23,638 nucleotides of DNA from a virus. Shown piece by piece: positions 2,670-21,517 of the stretch (the stretch's first letter is position 1; each line of letters opens with the position of its first letter). Below the pieces are notes generated by a model. That model worked only from the letters and a program-made list of their open reading frames with translations. It was not told where the DNA came from and ran no database searches. The stretch spans positions 1 through 23,638 of IMG/VR virus record IMGVR_UViG_3300046003_003104, one strand, 5' to 3'. A program made the translations under genes and the position numbers.

Positions 2670-5600
2670 TTAAACTAAAAAATTAGGTCCAGCTATTGGT
2701 TGACTATTAATTAAAGCAATACCAGCATATCTCCAATAGAACGCATTGTTTGTTTTGTCTGGTGTTCTTTGAACAACACCTTTAGCTTGTGAACTAGTTG
2801 GTGCATTAGCTAAAAACTCCGTTCTAGTACCGACAAAATCTAAAGAATTTTGACGATATTGAGTATTATTTATACCTTCAACTGAGTTATTTATGTATTC
2901 TTCGGCATTTATAGCTGATATATTTTTACTATTTCTTAAAGCAACAATCGAAGTAGCCTTACTATTAATTTTTTTCCAATCAGAAATATTTTTAAACGTA
3001 GGTTCATATTGTTTTGGTGCGGTAATGATTTCTTTAATAGAGTTACCATACGGTTTTCCTGGTGTGTTTAATCTATTGTAAATACTTTGCGCAACATCTG
3101 CCATACCTTGTTGGTTTTCTTTAAAGTTTTCAGCCGCACATATCGCAACCAAAGACCAATAATCTGCTGTTGGACCAACCACCGTTTTTTCATTTTCACC
3201 ACCAGTGTTAAAATCAGCAACACCAATAATATTTTTCTTATTGTAGTATTTATTATTTGTTTTTAAAATTATTAAAATATAATCTTTAACATCTGAAGAA
3301 TCTGTTATATAACCATCAAACAAACCTATTTTAAATGTTTTTATAGAATCACTTAAATTACCACCAACCAAAAACGCTGTGTTACCATCTATTTTATACA
3401 AAACATCACAGTGACTTGATGTATAAGCACCACTTCTAGGTTTACAAAAAAGACAACCAACTTCTGGTTTTATTTTTAATCCAGATTTTAATGGGAACGC
3501 TTCGTAACCATTAACACCTTTCATAGCAGATGATACATAACTATAATGTAATGTAGATTTCATAAAGTTAGGGTCACCAGCTAACATTACATACGAAATG
3601 AACACAGCACTCCATGGTTGTGCATTAGAACTATATTCTTGAGCACCAACTCCTGGTGTTTTATCAGCATATTTTTTCAATATAGTAACCGCATCTTTTT
3701 CGTCTAAAGTTCCGTTTTTCCAAGCAGTAATTTCATTTTCAGCTGTTTGAGTTAAAACTTTTGGATTTTGTAATGGTACACCTATTATGGTTTTATCACT
3801 AGGAATTGAACTCTTCAAATCAGAATAAAAATCAGTAACATAATTTTTACCTTCAGTTGCTCGAACATTAGACGCTTTAGATTTACCAGCAGTACTTAAA
3901 TCTAAGGTTTCAATTAAACTCATATAGGCTTCAGCAATATCTATTATTGGTGATTCAATCGATTTTATTCTAGTACCAGTAAACCATGTTGACATGTAAT
4001 TTGGTTTTATATTATGCCTTGTTTTAATAATCATATAAGCACCATGAAACATTGGTACGTTGTTTAATTGAAAATACATCATAGGTTGAATCATTGGGTT
4101 ACCTAACATTTCAATTTCCGCGGAATAACTTCTAACCGCATATATGTTATACATATTTTGACCACCAATTGAAGGGTTATTTTCAAAACCTTTAGTTGAT
4201 ATATCTTGAACTATTTTTAAAGATTCTTCTGATTCGGTGAATTCACTTTGGTCCAATGTAATATCTTTAAAAATGTTTTGGTTTTGTTGTGAATAATTTA
4301 CAACAAACACTGAAACTGGGTCTTCGTTATCGTTTAATGGTTCGGCATAATCTGAAGGTATTGACACATCTGGATTACCATCTTTGTCACATCTTATATC
4401 AAAACCATCATTTGGGTATTTACCTGATTTTAAATCTAATTTATTAGATTTTTGACCAGTATAAACACATACAAATGTTGGTCCACATGTGGTTATTGCT
4501 TCATCATAAGCAAATGGTGTAAACACTGATTGTAACATTTCGTCATCACGATAATTAATAAATGTTGGTAACGCTAAAAATTCAAATTTATTATCACTTA
4601 ATAACCCACTTATCACACCAGTTGCTGATGTATTTGGAAAATCTGATATAGTTTCACCTAAGGGTGTTGGGTCAATATATAATTCATTACCAATATCTTT
4701 AAATGACCTAGTTACAAACCTAAAACTATCTATAAGTCTAGGGGAACTTGAAAGGGGGTTATATTTTTTAGCCATAGCAGCATCAATTTTTTTTCTATTG
4801 CTACCATCTCTATTATTATCACCACATTGAAATATGATATTACTTTCATCTGTTATACCACCAAGCCATTTATCATAGATATTTTTACAATGTCTATAAA
4901 GCATTAGTTTTACATCATCTTTATTGTTTGTGCCAAATACTTGATTTATTTCATTTTCCACTTGATTGGTTAATGTTAAACCACTAACCGCGTTGGATAT
5001 AACAGATATATATGTTTCGTAATATTCTTTAAAAAAACCTTCAGAAATACCGATAGGTCTACGTAATAAATCTAAATCTTCACCACTATTAATATCACCA
5101 TCACCTCTAACATTAATTCTGTCTTTACCAAGCCATATACCGTAACCAGTGTTTGCTATTATAATTTCTTCATCAAACGCTTTAATTAGAGCTTTACCAA
5201 CATCAGAACCACCGTTTAATTCTAATAAAAACTGATGTTTATCTAGAGCACTAAAACTAGCACCTTCTGCTAGGGTTGTTATTATGTTATAATTGTCGTA
5301 ATTTATTAAGTTATCAATTATTTTATCGCTATAAAAATTATAGTTATTATTTGTCCCATCATACCCTAAAAAACCAGTTTGACCATTTGGTGTAGTTTCT
5401 GTGGTTTTATATCTCATTCTATCTAAAAAACCACAAAACTCAGTTGGTGTTTGGTTGGTTATTTCTAAACCATTATATATAGTTTCCCAAGAAACATAAA
5501 CACTGGTTCCGTTTACAAAATCAAAAAAAACTTTTTGAAACTCATTTTTAACTTGTTCTGGTAACGCTCTAATAACAGAGTCGTTTTCAATTATAATGTT

Positions 5601-8600
5601 TTCATCTATAATTCTAGGAAAATAATAACCAGGTGCTGGTGCTTTAAATGATGAAGCATTTACCCCACATGTTTTTTTCCATATAACTGGGTCTTTGATT
5701 CCACGACCACCACCTACAATTTTACCATCGACAATAATAGGGTCTTCTTCAGATAACCACCATAACACGGCACCCACATAAGCAACCCAAAATCTTGGTG
5801 CGTGAACAAACCCACCTTTAATATCGAATAAATGTTTTATTTCTAAACTACCAAAAGGGTCATAATTATCATAAGATATATTAAACGGTAATGTGTTTAA
5901 AAACAAAAGAGCTTTAGCATATTTTTCAACATTAAGTTTTCTTAGGTTATCATTATAAGTACATTCAGCATTTTTTTGTAAATAGTACCACTTACTACCA
6001 AATAAACTAAAACCAGTGGCCAAACCACCAATTTTAAAAGTTTGAACGATACTCGTTAATTGTTGAATATAAGGGTATGATATATTGTTTGGTGCTGTGT
6101 TTATATCTATTGCTTTAAACCTACTAGACCCAACACTTTCATGAATTAACCTACCATTTTTTTTAGTTTTCATAAATTCTGAATAATCATTAGGTGTCGG
6201 TATTAAGGTGTTTCGTTTCCAAACACCATCGAACACACTATTATTATTTTTAAATCCGTTTATTGACGCTGATTGTGCTCTAGAATCAGCCAACCCATTT
6301 CTATTTTTACTATCGTTTCTATAAAAAATGTACATAGCTGGAGTGTTTTCTGGAGCATTTTCTGGCCCAAAAGTTATTTTACCAAAATCTTGAATACCGA
6401 ATATACCACCAAAAGAATTAAACCCAGCGTTAGCTATATTACCTGTTGATAAGTTTATTAAATCTATCACACTATTTGTGTCGATAGATGTGTCTACTAA
6501 AGTTAAATCTGTCGCATATTCAACGTTGGTAAACATTTTAACATATATACCATAATCTTCTTGTTTCGTTAATTCGTTTACTGTTTTAGTGTAATTAACA
6601 CCCGAATTATAATTTGTTAAAAATAAAATACCATCATCTACCATATTAGAAAGAGTGTTGGGTATTCTAGGGTTACCTAAAGCTATTGGTACGTAGTCAT
6701 TTAAATCTGAATTTATTGGTAGAACTTTAGTTTCTGTTTTTTCACCGTTACTAAAAAAATAATCATAGTAATATTTTTTATCGGTTGCATCATAAAACAT
6801 TAATTTTGAATCAACACCATTTATAGTACCAAAAGTTTTAACTAAATCATCTATTTTTAAATTTTTTAACGAAACCTTTAAAGTTGGGTTAATTATCGCT
6901 GATAACATAGTGTTTGCCTCTAAAATAGCCATTTTTCGTATATCACCATTTTCACCTCTTGACATGTATAGTGGGTTGTTAGTATATGATAGATATATCA
7001 TACCTCTAATTATCATTAAACGTTTTACTTGTTCGATATTTTGTAGTTCTTTTACAGCGTATGGGTTACCAGCTTTATCGTTAAATAATTTAGTGTCTAA
7101 AGGGTTAACTGGAAAAAATAAAGTCCCACTACCAGCGTTAAGCAAATCTAAACTTTGTTCTAACCTGCTTGCCGTTAAAAACGCTTGTAATAAATCGTCA
7201 ATAAATTCTAATTCAGGTATATCACTTATTCTATTTTTTAAAATAGTGTTTGCGCCTAAGTATTTGTCACTATAATTATTTGATTGAGTTTCTTTTTCAC
7301 TATAAGCTGGCCATGGATAGAAATTAGGGTCGTCTTTGTTATAATCACTACCTTCTTTTTTACCACTAAAAACAGTTGTAAACAATTCTTTTCTAACTTG
7401 ATTTAATTCAGCTTTTCTAGAAACCTCATAAACCGTTTCCATAAAAACTTCAATTAAACATGTGAAAACTTCAATCATATTCCTAACTGTTGGGTTAAAC
7501 CCTAAAGTTTCTGTAATTGAGTTTTTAATTTCGTTAGCTAAGTATTTATTTGTGTCGTTTAACGTTTTTTCAATCAACTCCCTTTGGTCTTTTATTAGTT
7601 TAAATCTAGACCTTAAATCCATTAACCTAAACACATAATCTGAGGCAATTGCTGTAAAATTAGTATTTAAATAATTTAATAAGTCTTTTTTAAAACTTTC
7701 TAAAGCTGCTATGTCTTTTAATTTAGAATCTTCAACTATTGTTAGCGTGCTTTCTGGTTCCAATAATTTTTTAGTTAAATCATTTAAAATTATTGGGGTC
7801 GCTAAATCAATTTCATTTATTTTTGCACCACCTATATTTAAATTATTATATTGTACTATTAATTCTTTTATCGTTTTATCAAAATCATTATATTTTTCTT
7901 GTCGTTCTGCGGAAAAAGAAAGATTTTCCATAATAACAAAATCATATATGGTTATAGTTGTTGTTGTTTCGTCTTTAGTTGTTGTGTATTCAAGACCAAA
8001 GCTATTTATCGCCGCTTCTAAATTATTTAATATTTCTAGAGCTTCTTTAAACGAATTTATATCTTTAGCTTCCTCTGATTTTAACGCAGCTTTTTTAATT
8101 GATTCTGGAATTAAAGAAATCTTATTCTTTAATTCCACCAAATTTAAAATTTTTGGGTCTTTATTTTCATTATATTTTTTAAATTTATCACCACCAATTT
8201 TTGTAAAAGGTATAGCTTTTAATACACCTATAAGCATATCAGATAACATAGCGTAAGTATAACCAATAAATTCACAACTTATTTCAAAATTACCTGTTTG
8301 TGAATTAAATTTAGAGTTAAATTTTAACATATGTAAACAATAAGTTACTGGTAAACCATAATACCCTTTGATTTCTAATTCAAACAACGGATATGGAAAC
8401 TCAAAAAAAGTAGCGTATTTATTTCCTGAGTCATTTAATAACTCTTCTTCATTTTGAAAAATAGAAGAACCTCTAACATCTATAAAATCTATTTTAATCA
8501 TCGGAGTGTAAGATGAATTAAAATCTATATCTATATTAGTAATACCAAAAGTCTCAGGGTTAAAAGTATCGGTTTCAAAAGATGTCGTTAATTCAGTAAA

Positions 8601-8906
8601 TTTTGTTGTTAAAACTTTTTTACCGTTTATATCAGAACCTTCAATAAAATTTATTGTAGCGCCTTGTTGTTCTTTTACAGTTGATTGATTTTTATCACTA
8701 TCATTTGTTATAGATGTTCTACCTCTTTTTTTTGTTGTTAACTTAACTGATATCGTTAAATCCTCTAATCTAACTGGAATGTTTCTAGATGAATCTGTTT
8801 CACCATAGAAGGCGTTTGGGTCTATAATTTTAGTTCTAGAACCATTATTACCTCCTATTTTTTCACCTAACCTACACCCAATTCTGTTTTGATTTGTATT
8901 ATCCAT
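2670..8906 (-). CDS. Giant baseplate hub protein with two cell-wall hydrolase domains (2078 aa)
   Basis: Probably the central hub and puncturing/lytic protein of the tail. Residues about 130-225 (IKIDFIDVRG, FPYPLFELEIKGYYG, FEISCEFIGYTYAM) resemble the N-terminal barrel of jumbo-phage hub proteins. A matching late segment at about 1600-1655 (NPMIQPMMYFQLNNVPMFHG, then a TGTRI strand) resembles the second tube-like domain of T4 gp27-type hubs. The roughly 1370 residues between them are unassigned. Residues about 1720-1890 look like a DUF2272/NlpC-like fold (QPWSAVFISYVM, HYSYV, SSHCDVLYKID); the usual nucleophile position holds S1766, and H1832 is a candidate catalytic residue. Residues about 1915-2078 match SleB/CwlJ-type cell-wall hydrolases, with E1926 in ICAAENF as the likely catalytic acid and GMADVAQSIYNRL following. 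It overlaps the gp53-like gene by 8 bp. Family calls are from motif memory. Confidence 0.85.
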   Translation of the reverse strand: MDNTNQNRIGCRLGEKIGGNNGSRTKIIDPNAFYGETDSSRNIPVRLEDLTISVKLTTKKRGRTSITNDSDKNQSTVKEQQGATINFIEGSDINGKKVLTTKFTELTTSFETDTFNPETFGITNIDIDFNSSYTPMIKIDFIDVRGSSIFQNEEELLNDSGNKYATFFEFPYPLFELEIKGYYGLPVTYCLHMLKFNSKFNSQTGNFEISCEFIGYTYAMLSDMLIGVLKAIPFTKIGGDKFKKYNENKDPKILNLVELKNKISLIPESIKKAALKSEEAKDINSFKEALEILNNLEAAINSFGLEYTTTKDETTTTITIYDFVIMENLSFSAERQEKYNDFDKTIKELIVQYNNLNIGGAKINEIDLATPIILNDLTKKLLEPESTLTIVEDSKLKDIAALESFKKDLLNYLNTNFTAIASDYVFRLMDLRSRFKLIKDQRELIEKTLNDTNKYLANEIKNSITETLGFNPTVRNMIEVFTCLIEVFMETVYEVSRKAELNQVRKELFTTVFSGKKEGSDYNKDDPNFYPWPAYSEKETQSNNYSDKYLGANTILKNRISDIPELEFIDDLLQAFLTASRLEQSLDLLNAGSGTLFFPVNPLDTKLFNDKAGNPYAVKELQNIEQVKRLMIIRGMIYLSYTNNPLYMSRGENGDIRKMAILEANTMLSAIINPTLKVSLKNLKIDDLVKTFGTINGVDSKLMFYDATDKKYYYDYFFSNGEKTETKVLPINSDLNDYVPIALGNPRIPNTLSNMVDDGILFLTNYNSGVNYTKTVNELTKQEDYGIYVKMFTNVEYATDLTLVDTSIDTNSVIDLINLSTGNIANAGFNSFGGIFGIQDFGKITFGPENAPENTPAMYIFYRNDSKNRNGLADSRAQSASINGFKNNNSVFDGVWKRNTLIPTPNDYSEFMKTKKNGRLIHESVGSSRFKAIDINTAPNNISYPYIQQLTSIVQTFKIGGLATGFSLFGSKWYYLQKNAECTYNDNLRKLNVEKYAKALLFLNTLPFNISYDNYDPFGSLEIKHLFDIKGGFVHAPRFWVAYVGAVLWWLSEEDPIIVDGKIVGGGRGIKDPVIWKKTCGVNASSFKAPAPGYYFPRIIDENIIIENDSVIRALPEQVKNEFQKVFFDFVNGTSVYVSWETIYNGLEITNQTPTEFCGFLDRMRYKTTETTPNGQTGFLGYDGTNNNYNFYSDKIIDNLINYDNYNIITTLAEGASFSALDKHQFLLELNGGSDVGKALIKAFDEEIIIANTGYGIWLGKDRINVRGDGDINSGEDLDLLRRPIGISEGFFKEYYETYISVISNAVSGLTLTNQVENEINQVFGTNNKDDVKLMLYRHCKNIYDKWLGGITDESNIIFQCGDNNRDGSNRKKIDAAMAKKYNPLSSSPRLIDSFRFVTRSFKDIGNELYIDPTPLGETISDFPNTSATGVISGLLSDNKFEFLALPTFINYRDDEMLQSVFTPFAYDEAITTCGPTFVCVYTGQKSNKLDLKSGKYPNDGFDIRCDKDGNPDVSIPSDYAEPLNDNEDPVSVFVVNYSQQNQNIFKDITLDQSEFTESEESLKIVQDISTKGFENNPSIGGQNMYNIYAVRSYSAEIEMLGNPMIQPMMYFQLNNVPMFHGAYMIIKTRHNIKPNYMSTWFTGTRIKSIESPIIDIAEAYMSLIETLDLSTAGKSKASNVRATEGKNYVTDFYSDLKSSIPSDKTIIGVPLQNPKVLTQTAENEITAWKNGTLDEKDAVTILKKYADKTPGVGAQEYSSNAQPWSAVFISYVMLAGDPNFMKSTLHYSYVSSAMKGVNGYEAFPLKSGLKIKPEVGCLFCKPRSGAYTSSHCDVLYKIDGNTAFLVGGNLSDSIKTFKIGLFDGYITDSSDVKDYILIILKTNNKYYNKKNIIGVADFNTGGENEKTVVGPTADYWSLVAICAAENFKENQQGMADVAQSIYNRLNTPGKPYGNSIKEIITAPKQYEPTFKNISDWKKINSKATSIVALRNSKNISAINAEEYINNSVEGINNTQYRQNSLDFVGTRTEFLANAPTSSQAKGVVQRTPDKTNNAFYWRYAGIALINSQPIAGPNFLV

Positions 8907-13690: not shown

Positions 13691-16198
13691 TTAACCTTTA
13701 TGCTTACCACCATTATCATTTTTTTCTAATTGAGATTGGACAATCCTGGTAATTGATGCTCTAAATTCTTGACTTTTAATTAATTCTTGACCAATATTTG
13801 AACCATCTGGTAAAGTAACTTTTATTTCTCCAGATATCTTTAATTCACCAAATTCAATTTTACTACTAGAGCTTTTATTAGAACTTCCGCTACCACCCAT
13901 TAATCCACCCATTAATCCACTAGTTAGCAAACCTAACGGACTTGCCAACATACCAAATTTCAAAATTTGCGCTAAATCTTTGTTACCGTTTTTATTGGTT
14001 CCAGCTACCATTGTTGAATCATCAACCTTTGTGAATTTATCGTCTTTATTAAATTGAACAATACCATCATCCATACTTTGTGTGTTTTGATTAGCTTCAT
14101 CTTGGTTAAAATAATCTCCACCATATTTACCTATCGCACCACCAGCCAAAGCACCACCACCAACAGCGGCCGCTGTTATAGCTAACGAAGCACCAGCGGT
14201 GAAAGGCGCTAAAGCAAGTCCTAATAAAGCACCACCTATAGCCAGTCCAGTACCCCAATTATCACCAGCTTTTGTTGATTTTCTACCACTAGCTTCAGTC
14301 GCTTTTTTACCTAAATATTTTCCAGCCATACCACCAGCAACACCAGCAGCTGCTACTGCCATTAAAGGACCAGCCGTTTTAGCAAAACCTTTTGCTAAAG
14401 AAGAAATTGTTCCACCTCCACCTCCACCAACTAAAAATCCTTGAGACAAAGCAATACCATTTAAAACCCACTTAGCGATATCAAATAAAGCCATAACACC
14501 TTTACCAGCTAACCAAGCCGCAAATATACCCTGAGGTCCTATCGCTACGGCAATTTCAGCTAAACCCTTAAACCATGTAGCGGCTGTTGTAATCCAGCTA
14601 CCAAGTGTTACACCTAATGATTTTAATTCTTTTTTAAAATCCGTACCCTTATCACCCATTAACTCTTCAACAAATGGTTTTAAAACTCCTGTGATACCTT
14701 CAACAATTGGCATCATATAAGTTTTAACCATGTTAATAAGATTTGTCATTTGCTCATCAAAACTTTTTGCGGCCAATGCTCTTTCTTCTAGAGTTTTTTT
14801 CTCTTTGACTTGTTTTTCAATCAATGATTTACCAGCAGCGCCTAATTGATTTAAGAATTTCTTTTCACCATCTATAGTAATATAAGCTTTTCCGTTTTTA
14901 TCAAATTCTGCTGTATTCGCTAAAAATTCTCTTGCCTCATCATTCATAGTGAATGATACTTGGCTTTTAATTTTAGTAAACTTTGCAGCGTTCATCCCAG
15001 CTGTTACTAGGGAATCATATTCCATACCAGTTTGTTGAGCAATTATTTTAAGTCTATGCATTTCCATAGTTGCCAATTCAAACTTACCAGTCTTTTTGTT
15101 AAAATTAGCCGACTCAGCAGCTGCGTTAGCTATTTCCTCAGTTAATCCAGCCATATCATTACGAGCCATATACATAAGCTTGAAAGGGTCCCCAAGCTTA
15201 GCAAACGCACCACCCATAACATTAAATTGGGCAGCTGTTTCAACAGCACCTTCAACATTCCAAAGTTTTTCAGCAAATCCGCTGGCAAAGTCCATACCAA
15301 CACCTAGTTTAGCTGATAATTCACTCATTTTCACTAACCCTTTAACACCATCTTTAAACCTAAATTTATTAAGCATTTTGGTATTTTGAGCTATATTTTT
15401 AATAACCTTAGCTGAGTTTAAACCCATGGAAGAACTTCTATTAGCCGCTTCTTCCATAGCATCTTTGGTTCTAACAGCTGAAACTCCTTGCGCTTCAAAA
15501 TCTGCTGCCATTTGACCTGTTGCTTCAGCACCTAAAGATGTTCCTTCAGCAATTTGAGACAACGCAACCAAACCTTCTTTACCTAAAGATACGTTTCTAC
15601 CAATATTTTCAGAATATTGAGCTTGCATTTCGGCCAACTCTTTAATACCCATTCCAAGTTTTTGAGTATCTTCTGCCGCTAGTTTTATATTATTTCTAAA
15701 ACTCTCACTTTGAGAACCAATTAAACCCATTTGAAGACCAGCACTTCTAATAGCTTTATCCATTTCAAACAAACCTTTAAGTTTGTTTGTAATATTACCA
15801 ATCATTGAAGGTATTTTATCTAAATTAGCAGCCGCTTTAGCTGAAGAAGCCAAAATTTGACCTCCTAGCATATCCCATTTTTTGGCTTCTTTAACAATTT
15901 CAGTATAGTACTGTTTTGTTTTTTTAATTCGACCCATCTCCGAGTCAATCAAATGTATCCTAGCTTTTGTTAATTTAAGCTGTTCTTTATCCTCATCAGT
16001 AACAGCGTTGGCTAATCTTTCTTCTTCTTCTTTTAATTTATTTAGATTTTCTTGAGCTGTTTTTAAGTCTTTTTGTAGACTCTTAATCTTTTTAATACCT
16101 TCAATATAACCTTCTAAACCACTATTTATATCTTCTTGTATCCTAGCGTAATCCCTAGCATTATTTAATGCGTCATAATCAAATCCATCAAAAGCCAT
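13691..16198 (-). CDS. Tail tape measure protein (835 aa)
   Basis: The ruler that sets tail length and fills the tube lumen before DNA ejection. Residues about 30-110 form a charged coiled coil rich in Lys/Glu. Residues about 110-500 are helical, with many Ala, Lys and Met. Residues about 545-705 hold hydrophobic, Gly/Ala-rich membrane-like segments (IFAAWLAGKGVMALF, GGGGGG linker, GLAIGGALLGLALAPF, ITAAAVGGGALAGGAIG), typical of tape measures. The C-terminal 60 residues return to a beta-like segment (KIEFGELKISGEIKVTL). Its place after the tail chaperone and before the baseplate genes is the usual one. Tail length scales with ruler length, about 0.15 nm per residue if fully helical, suggesting about 125 nm. 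That estimate is inference. The start follows the 308-aa gene's stop by 2 bp. Confidence 0.88.
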   Translation of the reverse strand: MAFDGFDYDALNNARDYARIQEDINSGLEGYIEGIKKIKSLQKDLKTAQENLNKLKEEEERLANAVTDEDKEQLKLTKARIHLIDSEMGRIKKTKQYYTEIVKEAKKWDMLGGQILASSAKAAANLDKIPSMIGNITNKLKGLFEMDKAIRSAGLQMGLIGSQSESFRNNIKLAAEDTQKLGMGIKELAEMQAQYSENIGRNVSLGKEGLVALSQIAEGTSLGAEATGQMAADFEAQGVSAVRTKDAMEEAANRSSSMGLNSAKVIKNIAQNTKMLNKFRFKDGVKGLVKMSELSAKLGVGMDFASGFAEKLWNVEGAVETAAQFNVMGGAFAKLGDPFKLMYMARNDMAGLTEEIANAAAESANFNKKTGKFELATMEMHRLKIIAQQTGMEYDSLVTAGMNAAKFTKIKSQVSFTMNDEAREFLANTAEFDKNGKAYITIDGEKKFLNQLGAAGKSLIEKQVKEKKTLEERALAAKSFDEQMTNLINMVKTYMMPIVEGITGVLKPFVEELMGDKGTDFKKELKSLGVTLGSWITTAATWFKGLAEIAVAIGPQGIFAAWLAGKGVMALFDIAKWVLNGIALSQGFLVGGGGGGTISSLAKGFAKTAGPLMAVAAAGVAGGMAGKYLGKKATEASGRKSTKAGDNWGTGLAIGGALLGLALAPFTAGASLAITAAAVGGGALAGGAIGKYGGDYFNQDEANQNTQSMDDGIVQFNKDDKFTKVDDSTMVAGTNKNGNKDLAQILKFGMLASPLGLLTSGLMGGLMGGSGSSNKSSSSKIEFGELKISGEIKVTLPDGSNIGQELIKSQEFRASITRIVQSQLEKNDNGGKHKG

Positions 16199-17162: not shown

Positions 17163-17185
17163 AAATCCCCAAAAAATGGGGATTT
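17163..17185 (-). terminator. Intrinsic terminator after the tail chaperone
   Basis: A 9-bp perfect stem AAATCCCCA / TGGGGATTT with a 5-nt loop is followed on the minus strand by T5AAT3. It starts 2 bp beyond the stop of the chaperone extension frame. Confidence 0.88.
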
Positions 17186-17186
17186 A

Positions 17187-17408
17187 TTATTTTAGTGGTA
17201 TCTCACCAGTTTTCATTTTAGATTTTAAAGCATCACCAGATATTTTTGATTGTCTGCTACCTTTACTATTTGATGTTGAAGTTGATTTTTGGTTTTCAAT
17301 AAACTCCATCTTTTTTTCGTTTTGTTTTATTAACAAAGTTATAAAATATCTTCTTTCATAGACAGGCATCATCATAACATCATTATAACCCATATTTAAA
17401 TTTTGCAT
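17187..17408 (-). CDS. Tail assembly chaperone, C-terminal extension frame
   Basis: This frame encodes 73 residues from an ATG at 17408, but it is open further upstream to 17492, well inside the end of the 424-aa chaperone gene. Read from the U7 run at 17460-17466 it continues FFGLTSNYKPIVLEESFICM and then YNDVMMMPVYERRYFITLL. The M-P-V-Y-E-R-R motif is typical of the distal part of tail chaperones and hub-assembly proteins. The rest is a basic, Ser/Thr-rich tail. Coding-like residues upstream of the ATG suggest that the real product is a frameshift fusion of 508 aa (or 509 if by -2), not a free 73-aa protein. A separate product from the ATG, which has no clear leader, remains possible. A strong terminator follows directly. 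Confidence 0.7.
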   Translation of the reverse strand: MQNLNMGYNDVMMMPVYERRYFITLLIKQNEKKMEFIENQKSTSTSNSKGSRQSKISGDALKSKMKTGEIPLK

Positions 17409-17439
17409 ACAGATAAAAGATTCTTCTAAAACAATAGGT

Positions 17440-18714
17440 TTATAGTTTGATGTCAGGCCAAAAAAAGCCGAGGTTAAGGGGAAGAAAGGTTTTTACGGAC
17501 CCACCCCCAGGAGTCCCAACCTCAATATTTAAATCAACACCACAATCAATAGAATCTACATATTTATTAAAAGATTTAGAATCACCTATCCTCATATAAT
17601 TAACAAAATCTCTAATCATAACTTTATTTGTGTCCCCGTTAACTTCAACAATCATATTTTCTAATTTATATGTGATAGCATTATTAACAGGTATGTTCAT
17701 TTCTTTTTCTTTTTCCAATATTTTTTCTATATTTTCAATATCACCACAATTTAATAGTTTAAATCTAACATTAGCTTTGCTAATTGGCATAACAAAACTA
17801 AACAAACCATCTTCATCTGGTTCAACATTAAACTCAATAGTTTTAAGGTCATTTAAGTTTATTTCAATATCAAAAGGTTCTTCTAGTTCATCATATAAAG
17901 TAACAGGGTACATTTCACCATAAGCTGTGGCTCTTAACCAAAGCATTATTGCATTTCTATCACCTGGCAACAAGTCTTTATATCTCAAATCAGGTTCTAA
18001 TAATTTTCTATTTATTAAAATTTCTAAAAACTCACCACTTTTTAATAAATTAGGGCTAGTAAGAATATTTTCATCTGATGTAGTCATATAAGCTAATTTA
18101 ATGTTAGCTTTTTTATTTTTATATAATTTACCCTTAGAAGGTAATGGAATTACATCAAATGGTGCGTTATAGTTAGGCTGACTCAATTCTAAAATATATG
18201 GGTCAACACTTGGTTGTGTGTTGTACATCGTATTGGTTTGGTTAGTAGTCATAACTGGACTAGATGGTTGTGGTTGGTAAGTTGGTTTTGATTGCATAGT
18301 ATTTTGTTGATAATAATCTTTATCTCTACCCATCGCCTCTTCCGATAAACGTTGGTAATTTTTAGTTTGTTCTAAGTTCTTGTTTAGTTGTTCGTCTCTA
18401 AGACGCATTTGTTCATTATAACCATCTTCTTTTGTCGGTTGTTGATAAACTCTAGTTGAGGTTTTTTCAGATAGAGACGCGTCTTTAACCACACCAACAT
18501 CTTGTCTTTGTTTTAGTTGAGATTCAGTTCTAACCCTCATTTGTTCAACAGCACTCATATGTTCATACGGTGTGTCTGATTGCACTTGTGAAGAATAGAT
18601 TTGGTTTGTAAGCATCATCTTTTCGGCTTCATACGCGGCTACTCTTTCGGCTTCTGTTAAGTTAGGTTTTTGTGGTTGGTTGTTTGGGAAAACATTTGGT
18701 TTAATATCTGACAT
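17440..18714 (-). CDS. gp26-type baseplate hub/tail assembly chaperone (424 aa)
   Basis: Residues about 1-175 are Gln/Pro/Thr/Glu-rich and probably disordered. The conserved part, about 182-416, begins FDVIPLPSKGKLY and continues with MTTSDENILTSPNLLKSGEF, LLPGDRNAIMLWLRATAYG and a Cys-containing distal segment. This pattern belongs to the T4 gp26 baseplate-hub family (PF12322 as I recall it), whose members act near the tape measure as assembly factors. The zero-frame product ends FFWPDIKL right after a U7 run. A +1 or -2 shift there would add about 90 residues. The gene lies 7 bp after the tube paralogue and upstream of the tape measure unit, the normal place for a tail chaperone pair. GC content rises locally near VGTPGGGSVKT (about 17485-17520). 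Confidence 0.82.
   Translation of the reverse strand: MSDIKPNVFPNNQPQKPNLTEAERVAAYEAEKMMLTNQIYSSQVQSDTPYEHMSAVEQMRVRTESQLKQRQDVGVVKDASLSEKTSTRVYQQPTKEDGYNEQMRLRDEQLNKNLEQTKNYQRLSEEAMGRDKDYYQQNTMQSKPTYQPQPSSPVMTTNQTNTMYNTQPSVDPYILELSQPNYNAPFDVIPLPSKGKLYKNKKANIKLAYMTTSDENILTSPNLLKSGEFLEILINRKLLEPDLRYKDLLPGDRNAIMLWLRATAYGEMYPVTLYDELEEPFDIEINLNDLKTIEFNVEPDEDGLFSFVMPISKANVRFKLLNCGDIENIEKILEKEKEMNIPVNNAITYKLENMIVEVNGDTNKVMIRDFVNYMRIGDSKSFNKYVDSIDCGVDLNIEVGTPGGGSVKTFLPLNLGFFWPDIKL
17460..17466 (-). other. Probable programmed frameshift (slippage) site, U7
   Basis: The minus strand reads GGC TTT TTT TGG in the chaperone frame. The extension frame reads TTT TTT GGC, reached by +1 or -2 slippage or by loss of one T. 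The -1 frame stops at once (TTG GCC TGA). The overlap of the two open frames is bounded at 17440 and 17492, and U7 is the only long homopolymer in it. Confidence 0.65.
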
Positions 18715-18721
18715 AATTTAT

Positions 18722-19417
18722 TTATTTTATTTCTAATCTACCAATAGTAACTGATAGAATTATATTATTTATTTCATTAGATTTATAATCTAAATCACCA
18801 AAACTAAGATAATCTATAGTACAATCATAAAAATCAAATCTATCTATTACAACACCAGTAGGGTCCAAGTCTTCAATATAAAACGAAAATTCTTGTCGGT
18901 TTTCTAAAAATTTTAATAAATTTTTATTTTTATTTTGTATTGTATCGTTAATTTCTATTGATAATGGAGAATAAATTTTTTCATAAGAGTATGTTAAACC
19001 TAAAAACTTTTTAGGGTTTAAAATAATTGTAGGTTTGTTTACAAACTTAACATCCCAGACATCAATTCCGAGTTCCTTAGGTAAATGAAGTAAAAATCTA
19101 TTTTTTGATTTACATTCTTTAACTTGTGGGTTTAACATTTTAGGTGTACTTAACAATGGATTTTTTTTACCAGTTAATTTTTCATAATGCGGGTTTGGTT
19201 CACCTGTTTGTGGGTCATACAAAGGAATCTCATTTTTCTTTTTATCTAAAAAATCATTTATAGATGAAGAAAATTCACCTTCACTATATTTTGTTTCTTT
19301 TAAATTATTTCCAATAGGTTGGGTTTTTGTTAAATAAGACTTTACACCATTTAAATGTTTAATCTCTATAGTATCACCACTTAAAACTACTTTTTGTTTT
19401 TTTGTATTTTTATTCAT
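18722..19417 (-). CDS. Tail tube protein paralogue (231 aa)
   Basis: Clearly related to the tail tube protein encoded next to it. Both have KNR(F/W)L, a P-x-x-LGI segment, and near the C-terminus LDPTGVVI followed by a strand and then FGDL. It is about 70 residues longer, mostly in a lysine-rich N-terminal region (about residues 1-90) with short charged stretches. It lacks the WxxG-like core residues and the tyrosine/arginine-rich middle of the tube protein. It may be a specialised tube ring, such as a baseplate-proximal or terminal ring, but which end is not shown. The ATG at 19417 is preferred: the in-frame ATG at 19447 would place the start within the inverted repeat and promoter motif. 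Confidence 0.8.
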   Translation of the reverse strand: MNKNTKKQKVVLSGDTIEIKHLNGVKSYLTKTQPIGNNLKETKYSEGEFSSSINDFLDKKKNEIPLYDPQTGEPNPHYEKLTGKKNPLLSTPKMLNPQVKECKSKNRFLLHLPKELGIDVWDVKFVNKPTIILNPKKFLGLTYSYEKIYSPLSIEINDTIQNKNKNLLKFLENRQEFSFYIEDLDPTGVVIDRFDFYDCTIDYLSFGDLDYKSNEINNIILSVTIGRLEIK

Positions 19418-19427
19418 TTTAAAACTC

Positions 19428-19442
19428 TTTACAAATAAATAT
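19428..19442 (-). promoter_or_regulatory. Class B (putative late) promoter motif before the tube paralogue
   Basis: The minus strand reads ATATTTAT TTG TAAA, 10 nt before the ATG at 19417 and about 27 bp after the terminator hairpin. G lies two bases further upstream than at the other sites. It overlaps one arm of a perfect 13-bp inverted repeat. Confidence 0.55.
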
Positions 19443-19465
19443 ATCAAAACAAATTTATTTGTAAA
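19428..19465. repeat. Perfect 13-bp inverted repeat over the class B motif
   Basis: TTTACAAATAAAT at 19428-19440 and ATTTATTTGTAAA at 19453-19465 are exact reverse complements separated by 12 nt. The left arm contains most of the promoter motif, so the dyad could be an operator or a leader hairpin. Confidence 0.7.
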
Positions 19466-19500
19466 TAAAAAAGCCTCTATTAAAGAGGCTTTATTTTTTT
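19464..19500. terminator. Bidirectional intrinsic terminator after the tail tube gene
   Basis: A 9-bp perfect stem AAAGCCTCT / AGAGGCTTT (19470-19478 and 19484-19492) has a 5-nt loop and T-rich tails on both strands. On the minus strand it ends the tail tube message 14 bp beyond the stop codon. Confidence 0.9.
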
Positions 19501-19513
19501 TATTTGGTAAATT

Positions 19514-20002
19514 TTAAAACAAAAGTATCGCGCGGTCAAAACGTAACGTAGCGGTAATCTCAGCGATACCGTCATCTTCAAATGATAAATCACCGAATCC
19601 TACATTTGTAAGCATAGTTCCATCTAGCAACCATTTTTCGATAACAACACCTGTTGGGTCAAGCATTTCTAGTTCAACTGGTCTTTTGTAACCAGCAGCG
19701 TAACCTTGACGACCTGTGATTGATTCAGAGTGCAAACGAACCCATTCCATAATAGCTTGAGTAGCAGAAGGTCCAATTGGGTCACGGAAAGTAACATCAA
19801 TAGCTTCCCATGTAAATCTACCAATAACCCAAGTAGATGTGTTCAAGAAAGGTATCTCAACCTCATTTTGTGTTATTGAAGGTCTAGATGCTGAAGATAA
19901 CCACCATTGTTGGATACCTAAATCAGCAGGGAATGTAATTAACCAACGATTCTTTTTCTTAGGCTCGTATGGTAAGGGCATTTTCATTAATAAATCAGCC
20001 AT
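19514..20002 (-). CDS. Tail tube protein, gp19-like (162 aa)
   Basis: The major subunit of the inner tail tube. Its length nearly equals T4 gp19 (163 aa). It contains KNRWLITFPADLGIQQWWL near the N-terminus, RFTWEAIDVTFRDPIGPSA in the middle, and LDPTGVVIEKWLL followed by a strand and FGDLSFEDDG near the end, which fits the tube beta-sandwich. The start at 20002 (MADLLMKMPLPY) is chosen because upstream codons in the frame read Phe/Ile/Tyr-rich noncoding DNA. Its leader contains ATAAAAAACAAAAAACT before the ATG. It uses CGT, CGC and GCG codons that are rare in neighbouring genes, as expected for an abundant protein. It has its own late-type promoter motif and terminator, so it forms a single-gene unit. 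Confidence 0.93.
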   Translation of the reverse strand: MADLLMKMPLPYEPKKKNRWLITFPADLGIQQWWLSSASRPSITQNEVEIPFLNTSTWVIGRFTWEAIDVTFRDPIGPSATQAIMEWVRLHSESITGRQGYAAGYKRPVELEMLDPTGVVIEKWLLDGTMLTNVGFGDLSFEDDGIAEITATLRFDRAILLF

Positions 20003-20086: not shown

Positions 20087-21517
20087 ATGGATAAAAAAGA
20101 AAAATTTATAAATAAAGCTATAATTAAATTTGGTAATAAATTTAATTATGAAGAAATTGATTATATTGATTCTACAAAAAAAATAAAAATAAAGTGTAAT
20201 AAACATAATTTATTTTTTAATCAAGCGCCGTCTGAACATTTAAGGGGTAAAAATTCTTGTAATGAATGTACTAGGAACCCTAAAGTTAATACAAACTATT
20301 TTGTTCAAAAATCAAAAGAAATTCATGGTGATAAATATGATTATTCTTTAACGGAATATGTTAATTCATCAATAACGGTAGATATTATATGTAAAGAACA
20401 TGGTGTTTTTAGTGTTCTACCAAATAACCATTACAAACAAAATTGCCCAAAATGTAAAGAAAAAGATAAATATTTGACAACTAAAGAATTTATAGATAAA
20501 GCGTGTATTTTACATAATAAATATGATTATTCCGAAACAGAATATATAAATTCAAAAACTAAAGTTATAATAAAGTGTAAAGAACATGGTGTTTTTAATC
20601 AAATACCAAACGACCATTTAAATGGGAAAGGTTGTCCAAAATGTGGTTTAGCTTATAATAAAATGGAAGACGAAATAAAAGAATTTATTAAATCGTTAAA
20701 CATAAATATTATAGAAAATTCAAAACAAATAATATCACCTTTAGAATTAGATATATTTATACCGTCACATAATTTAGCTATTGAGTTTGATGGTTTATAT
20801 TGGCATTCTGAAGTTTATAAAGATAAAAATTATCATTTAAATAAAACTGAACTATGTCAAAGTAAAAATATTAGATTAATCCATATATTTGAAGACGAAT
20901 GGTTATTTAAAAAAGAAATAGTTAAATCTAGATTAAAAAATATATTAGGTTTAACACCAAATAAAGTATATGGTAGAAAATGTGTCATAAAAGAAGTTAT
21001 ACCTAAAGAAGCTAAAATATTTTTAGAAAATAACCATATACAAGGCAACGTTAACTCTAAAGTTAGACTAGGCTTGTATTATAATAACGTATTAATTGGT
21101 TTGATGACATTTGGTGGTTTAAGAAAAAACCTAGGAAATAAATCAAATGAAAATATATATGAATTATTTAGATTCTGTAATTTATCTAATTATATAATAA
21201 TTGGTGGTGCTGATAAATTGCTTAAATATTTTATTAAACATTATAAACCAAAAGAAATAATTAGTTACGCTGACAGAAGATGGTCACAAGGTGATTTATA
21301 TAATAAATTAAATTTTATTTTTTCACATAACACAAAACCAAATTATTTTTATTTGGTTAACGATAAAAGGGAAAATAGATTTAACTATAGAAAGGATATA
21401 TTAGTCAAAGAAGGTTTTGATAAAAACAAAACAGAACACGATATAATGTTAGAAAGAAAATTATATAGAATATATGATTGTGGTAGTATTTGTTTTAAAA
21501 TAAAAATGACCGATTAA
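20087..21517 (+). CDS. Free-standing homing-type endonuclease with three zinc-ribbon repeats (476 aa)
   Basis: The only plus-strand gene. Residues about 6-186 form three repeats of about 60 aa, each with one Cys-x2-His and one Cys-x2-Cys pair: C37/H40/C58/C61, C102/H105/C120/C123 and C164/H167/C183/C186. These are likely zinc-binding DNA-recognition modules. Residues about 190-290 resemble the Vsr-like/EDxHD homing nuclease core (LELDIFIPSHNLAIEFDGLY, WHSE, then LIHIFEDEW), with E196, D222, E233, H240 and H250 as candidate active-site residues. The C-terminal 180 residues (NNHIQG, YELFRFC, GGADKLLKYF, YADRRWSQG) form a separate domain whose hydrophobic pattern reminds me of GNAT folds, unproven. 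It probably cleaves related phage DNA lacking the insertion. Its very AT-rich codons, opposite strand and own host-type promoter fit a mobile insertion. Its stop codon lies in a terminator loop. Confidence 0.85.
   Translation: MDKKEKFINKAIIKFGNKFNYEEIDYIDSTKKIKIKCNKHNLFFNQAPSEHLRGKNSCNECTRNPKVNTNYFVQKSKEIHGDKYDYSLTEYVNSSITVDIICKEHGVFSVLPNNHYKQNCPKCKEKDKYLTTKEFIDKACILHNKYDYSETEYINSKTKVIIKCKEHGVFNQIPNDHLNGKGCPKCGLAYNKMEDEIKEFIKSLNINIIENSKQIISPLELDIFIPSHNLAIEFDGLYWHSEVYKDKNYHLNKTELCQSKNIRLIHIFEDEWLFKKEIVKSRLKNILGLTPNKVYGRKCVIKEVIPKEAKIFLENNHIQGNVNSKVRLGLYYNNVLIGLMTFGGLRKNLGNKSNENIYELFRFCNLSNYIIIGGADKLLKYFIKHYKPKEIISYADRRWSQGDLYNKLNFIFSHNTKPNYFYLVNDKRENRFNYRKDILVKEGFDKNKTEHDIMLERKLYRIYDCGSICFKIKMTD

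Follow-up and report, generated by a model that had tools for sequence, protein, structure and literature searches.

Results

The locus and its two reading frames

The window, i.e. the complete stretch of 23,638 bases of an IMG/VR virus record that was analysed, contains the gene for a gp26-type tail assembly chaperone, the frame-0 product of which is called G here (Table 1). Its 3' end reads GGC TTT TTT TGG CCT GAC ATC AAA CTA TAA, so that the minus strand carries a run of exactly seven T's followed by GGCCTGAC. A second open frame extends from 17492 to a stop codon at 17187-17189, with 101 codons in total, 90 of which lie past the T7 run, while the -1 frame reads LA* at the run and stops after two codons. 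The earlier note had described a chaperone frame that ends with FFWPDIKL just past a U7 run, a second frame open from 17492 with the motif MPVYERRYF inside, and a -1 frame that is ruled out at this site, and all three descriptions were borne out. It had also stated that removal of one T would result in a single 508-aa frame, which agrees with the product computed when TGGC is read as one step.

Runs of this type are commonplace, with 35 runs of at least seven T's over both strands of the window, and therefore the case rests on conservation. The chance of a 90-codon open frame is about 1e-4 on the basis of base composition. In the window and its relatives, at least 60 open codons past the gene end were found for the chaperone gene in 15/15 cases in +1 and in 0/15 cases in -1, compared to 2/68 (+1) and 4/63 (-1) for other gene ends.

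Table 1. Features of the chaperone locus and its surroundings in the window
Feature	Position	Strand	Basis or remark
Frame-0 product G, gp26-type tail assembly chaperone, 424 aa	18714-17440	-	ORF; terminus FFWPDIKL*
Conserved domain of G, residues 165-424	18222-17443	-	
Slip site UUU_UUU_UGG (T7, then GG)	17458-17466	-	T7 at 17466-17460
T domain, shifted-frame coding region, 90 codons (GLTSNYK...MPVYERRYF...IPLK) and stop	17187-17459	-	
Frame-0 stop codon TAA, few codons 3' of the slip-site TGG	17440-17442	-	sequence
Synonymously constrained stretch just 5' of the slip run, ACCTTTCTTCCNCTTAACNTCNNN	17467-17490	-	codons 401-416
Strong terminator-like hairpin, directly 3' of the T-domain stop	17163-17185	-	
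Upstream neighbour, tail-tube-like protein	18722-19417	-	phrog_4542, E=1.5e-6
Upstream neighbour, tail tube protein (gp19 type)	19514-20002	-	phrog_4542, E=1.6e-25
Downstream neighbour, 835 aa, candidate tape measure	13691-16198	-	position and composition only

Tube genes are located directly upstream of G in the window, and an annotated tape measure gene follows in the phages immuto, SP-15 and LIS04. The 835-aa candidate tape measure had no family match, and a BLASTP comparison with the immuto tape measure gave no support. The two proteins of the tail-tube family (phrog_4542) form a tandem pair (18722-20002, minus strand), and a second terminator-like hairpin at 19470-19492 separates their genes. 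A single plus-strand gene lies within the tail module (20087-21517); its product has a Mom-like domain (PF25680, 6.7e-8) as well as treble-clef zinc finger and REase_MTES_1575-like stretches, and it resembles a mobile gene for an endonuclease or a modification enzyme. The minus-strand gene at 2670-8906 encodes a tail or baseplate protein of 2078 aa with C-terminal DUF2272 and cell-wall hydrolase-like stretches.

Conservation of the junction

A scan of viral contigs retrieved 52 homologues with identities down to 37%. The sequence T7GGCC and the frame relation were invariant in 49/49 homologous junctions (including that of the window; 33 of them distinct), and thus the alignment of homologues for which the earlier note had called revealed separate frames together with a conserved slippery run of exactly seven T's. 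In the homologues with a junction, frame 0 ends with FFWP plus two to four residues, the -1 frame ends with LA*, and the +1 frame comprises 86-96 codons in those that are not truncated. From the contigs retrieved by an exact-pattern scan, 80 loci with 68 distinct contexts were read: the -1 frame was closed in 80/80, and the untruncated loci have shifted frames of at most 98 codons with a median of 91, only one being shorter than 70. In this locus (L263) the exact T7 element is present, and the shifted frame stops after 40 codons, possibly due to a mutation or a sequencing error.

The two slip codons are under synonymous constraint. Synonymous identity at both TTT codons was 1.0 in the window clade (0.78 expected) and 0.97 in the sister group (0.70 expected), and in the latter the constraint begins exactly at these two codons and is absent upstream. 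Codon identity was 0.89 at codons 411-420, versus 0.53 expected.

The layout is conserved across hundreds of T4-related phages. Profile scans of viral contigs yielded at least 600 relatives in one branch, the best 80 of which were read, and 35 in another. Among wider relatives, 108 loci were classified; 104 of them had an open +1 frame, and four had only the -1 frame. The second domain is in +1 in Microcystis phage Mel-JY01 (AAC TTT TTT TGG CCT AAG TAA), Flavobacterium phage immuto (AGC TTT CTT TGG CCT), Streptococcus phage GXN1 (GAA TTC TTT CGT CCC) and the 484-kb metagenomic genome LR756508 (AAC TTT CTA TTC CCT). Rhodothermus phage RM378 (TCC TTT TTT TGG AAT), Listeria phage LIS04 and Bacillus phage SP-15 follow the same +1 rule, and the one locus found in a scan of genome contigs, in an Erysipelotrichaceae MAG, is likewise +1. 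In one locus of the sister branch (L108), TTC TTC TGG replaces the T run and the T domain is open in -1, not in +1, which is a natural loss or switch of the slip site.

The G and T domains

The two domains were modelled separately with AlphaFold2, which returned confident models for both. The G model (pLDDT 88.7) had a structural match in BFVD, the baseplate hub subunit of Bacillus phage SP-15 (E=2e-18). When it was compared with 989 PDB chains using VIA-align, the top two were 3klu (B. subtilis YqbN, Z 5.1) and 2ob9 (the HK97 tail assembly chaperone, Z 4.6), both Z values being middling; a Foldseek search of the PDB gave no significant match, and a profile search of PDB sequences gave none.

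The T frame is under purifying selection (dN/dS 0.127), and its differences are distributed 140/76/288 over the three codon positions, i.e. with an excess at the third position. The T model is helical (pLDDT 85.4) and had no significant Foldseek match in the PDB. The DUF6760 profile (PF20546) matched 10 of 34 T domains at E<=0.1, with a best value of 1.6e-5; the match of the T domain of the window itself was weak (E=0.049, 14.1 bits, under the curated cut-off of 27). A search for DUF6760 pairs of contractile injection systems gave no match in the one cellular genome that was examined.

Possible cis elements near the slip site

Directly 5' of the slip run, synonymous sites of the stretch ACCTTTCTTCCNCTTAACNTC are frozen in the window clade only, and the element is absent from the sister branch; it is possibly a clade-specific cis element. 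Dual coding in the +1 frame was considered as the source of this 5' constraint and was discarded, because the freely varying base of CCN would change the +1 residue between P, H, R and L. RNAalifold predicted a pairing of TTTCTTCC with GGAAGAAA without covariation, and an upstream hairpin formed by GAGGTTGGG and CTTAACCTC in a single fold had a z value of -1.69 with weak covariation. Thus, no convincing stimulatory RNA structure was found upstream or downstream of the slip site, nor was a Shine-Dalgarno-like spacer present at the slip site.

The link to T4 gp26 and gp51

The G protein of the window matches phrog_150 ('baseplate hub', E=2.7e-7), the second half of the gene being of the gp26 type, and phrog_150 was matched by 46 of 47 family members. 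The G protein of the window had no match to PF12322; this family matches the proteins of SP-15 and RM378 as well as T4 gp26 (E 9e-64) and T4 gp51 (E 4e-52). T4 gp51 does not end with the gp26 domain, and its match to phrog_150 takes in the final portion of that profile. A comparison of a profile of 34 shifted-frame domains with the C-terminus of eight gp51 proteins using hhalign resulted in a probability of 92.7% and a score of 35.7, which was reached by 0/200 column-shuffled controls, the best of them scoring 15.6. Three intermediates (L177-L179) match phrog_634 ('baseplate hub assembly catalyst') with E values of about 1e-19 to 1e-21 (one E=4e-21).

In the cyanophages S-PM2, S-RIM8 and P-SSM3, U_UUU_UUY stands at the end of the gp26 gene, from where the -1 frame leads into the T domain with no stop codon in between. 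The same layout is found in pelagiphage Mosig, Caulobacter phage Cr30, Sinorhizobium phage phiM7 and Aeromonas phage ZPAH1, and the phages with the -1 layout include a Straboviridae relative. In the 595-kb genome LR756511 and in Agrobacterium phage Atu_ph07, the second domain is in -1 at U_UUU_UUC. The records of the cyanophages and of Mosig, Cr30, phiM7 and ZPAH1 annotate a short 'gp51' with a later start, or nothing. In the cyanophage and other T4-like loci L187-L191, L193 and L194, the gp51 annotations are truncated or missing, and the -1 frame can be followed without a break starting at the gp26 FF codons. T4 has no such second frame after gp26; its gp51 is encoded by a gene of its own on the opposite strand from gp26, without a slip site.

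The view of the earlier note that T4-like phages use separate genes, and that slippage would therefore be unusual, thus fits T4 itself, whereas slippage is common in the gp26 family at large (+1 in the relatives of the window, -1 in cyanophages and others). The simplest reading is that T4 gp26 would correspond to G and gp51 to GT, split apart in T4, which suggests that genes 26 and 51 may be a split version of the same G/GT pair.

Discussion

A probable programmed +1 frameshift and its alternatives

A conserved slip site, dual coding, selection on the T frame and a layout shared by many phages characterize this locus. Together they make it very probable, on comparative grounds, that a programmed ribosomal frameshift provides a T4-type version of the lambda G/GT tail chaperone pair. 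The majority of ribosomes would translate the gp26-like gene to FFWPxxxx* and yield G. In a fraction of them, slow reading of the next codon, UGG, would hold tRNAPhe on the P-site UUU; peptidyl-tRNAPhe would then move one base forward on the U7 run (UUU_U), onto the overlapping UUU, and the shifted ribosomes would go on with GGC CUG ACA. This would add the helical T domain of about 90 residues and result in a G-T fusion of 508 aa. If the parallel with lambda holds, the tape measure would be coated by G, and tube subunits would be recruited by the T portion of the fusion. We infer the ribosomal nature of the event, its direction (+1 rather than -2), its efficiency and its role in assembly.

Three explanations do without a ribosomal shift. 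An assembly or sequencing homopolymer error could conceal one uninterrupted 508-aa gene, as deletion of one T would fuse both frames. This alternative, raised in the earlier note, had to be rejected because the independent exact-pattern scan, run on IMG/VR, retrieved 109 contigs that carry seven T's and none with six or eight; moreover, the same frame break occurs in isolate genomes at sites other than seven-base homopolymers, and an error can be regarded as practically negligible. Alternatively, RNA polymerase might drop or add U's on the T7 run, so that mixed mRNAs are read by unshifted ribosomes. The U7 run in an AT-rich gene would allow this in the window clade, but the uninterrupted homopolymer of the window is not found in relatives with TTTCTTTGG and TTCTTTCGT, and the frame relation is retained at these broken runs and at CCCAGT; in addition, the abundance of T runs in the window indicates that a run alone does not create the layout. 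Transcriptional slippage is thus very unlikely. The same low probability is assigned to the production of two separate proteins, with T translated from its own start by re-initiation or at an internal AUG and no fusion being made. In favour of this reading, TAATGATGG is present at this place in Vibrio phage K474 and an ATGA overlap in Atu_ph07, and in most T frames of the window clade an ATG does precede the MPxYERR motif. However, the internal ATGs lie downstream of the slip run, where residue conservation already begins (FFGLTxxYK), and 58/108 T frames of relatives have no ATG, GTG or TTG ahead of the conserved motif, so that an independent start is disfavoured. Separate proteins would also leave the exact T7 run and the frozen synonymous sites unexplained, and T4 gp51, a natural fusion of G and T in one gene with a C-terminus that matches T, counts for the fusion.

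If the shift is ribosomal, its direction has to be considered, as +1 and -2 lead into the identical frame in the T7 clade. In a Mu-type programmed -2 shift, the P-site tRNAPhe would slip back two bases and one extra Phe would be incorporated (FFFGLTSNYK). The U7 run permits perfect re-pairing, the new A-site codon UUU is common, whereas the A-site codon GGC of the +1 shift is rare here (1.7 per 1000), which counts against +1, and -2 shifting has been documented for Mu (PMC5009743). In addition, the first TTT is nearly never TTC, as -2 needs (74 TTT, 1 CTT and 1 TTC, n=76), but an invariant first TTT would also be needed if the +1 slip occurred at the first UUU. The relatives speak for +1, because UUC_UUU_CGU and UUU_CUU_UGG permit +1 re-pairing and offer no good -2. 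The clearest discriminating site is UUC_UUU_CGU, which enables +1 re-pairing to UUC, while -2 in the same frame would pair the UUU-decoding tRNA with UCU. Several relatives have CUU_U at the slip site, which is the slip sequence of the prfB type. A cognate or prfB-like +1 site is present in 98 of the 104 +1 loci, and 11 of these 98 have a cognate +1 site without a cognate -2 site, whereas loci with a -2 site only were not found (0); -2 re-pairing is thus possible within the T7 clade, but not at all sites of the family. The remaining six of the 104 end in CCC_AGU-type sites, at which re-pairing from CCC to CCA is plausible. Therefore, of the two directions that the earlier note had left side by side, the comparison supports the programmed shift as such and favours +1 with high confidence, and a -2 shift appears unlikely.

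Comparison with known systems

In lambda, G and GT arise through a -1 frameshift, and equivalents of it exist in other long-tailed phages; the tape measure is bound by lambda G and the tube protein by T, and T4 has been named as an exception among the long-tailed phages using G/GT frameshifting (PMC5009743). The locus resembles lambda G/GT in the overlapping G and T frames, in a slip close to the end of G, in a T domain accessible via frameshifting only, and in the location of the gene between tube and tape measure genes in annotated relatives. It differs in that G belongs to the T4 gp26/gp51 family (phrog_150; PF12322 in relatives) and in the probable +1 direction of the shift, which would take place on UUU_UUU_UGG while the A site holds a sense codon. 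In T4, gp26 and gp51 both belong to PF12322, and the extra C-terminus of gp51 is homologous to the shifted-frame T domain, but unlike in the window the two are encoded apart, by genes that lie on opposite strands and lack a slip site. The cyanophage gp26 and gp51 genes and those of Mosig, Cr30, phiM7 and ZPAH1 share with the window a gp26-type gene that is followed, in another frame and at the conserved FF codons, by the same T domain, yet their relation is -1 at a canonical U_UUU_UUY.

As in the +1 frameshift of prfB (RF2) at CUU_UGA, the P-site tRNA would slip forward onto an overlapping UUU; in contrast to prfB, the A-site codon is UGG and not a stop codon, and a Shine-Dalgarno-like spacer was not seen. 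Tail chaperone shifts other than -1 include the -2 shift of phage Mu and a +1 shift proposed for the haloarchaeal myovirus HSTV-2 (PMC5009743). The locus would share with these two a non -1 shift in the chaperone of a contractile-tailed phage, although the slip site differs. A search of the open-access full-text literature yielded no description of a frameshift in a chaperone of the gp26/gp51 type.

Taken together, we lean slightly towards a wider proposal: the G/GT shift would be the common expression mode of gp26-type chaperones across the T4 superfamily (mostly +1 at UUU_UUU_UGG in the relatives of the window, -1 at U_UUU_UUY in cyanophages and others), T4 gp26 and gp51 would descend, by duplication and splitting, from a single frameshifting gene, and ACCTTTCTTCCNCTTAACNTC would be a new 5' cis element that tunes the +1 shift. 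The results indicate that the wider family of T4 does use G/GT frameshifting, and, if this is true, T4 would no longer be the exception. They also suggest that annotation pipelines miss fused domains, which in cyanophages are recorded as short 'gp51' open reading frames and in SP-15, LIS04, RM378 and immuto are left without annotation. In UUU_UUU_UGG, natural selection would have produced a +1 site that operates without the help of a stop codon or a Shine-Dalgarno motif and would be useful for studies of the mechanics of frameshifting.
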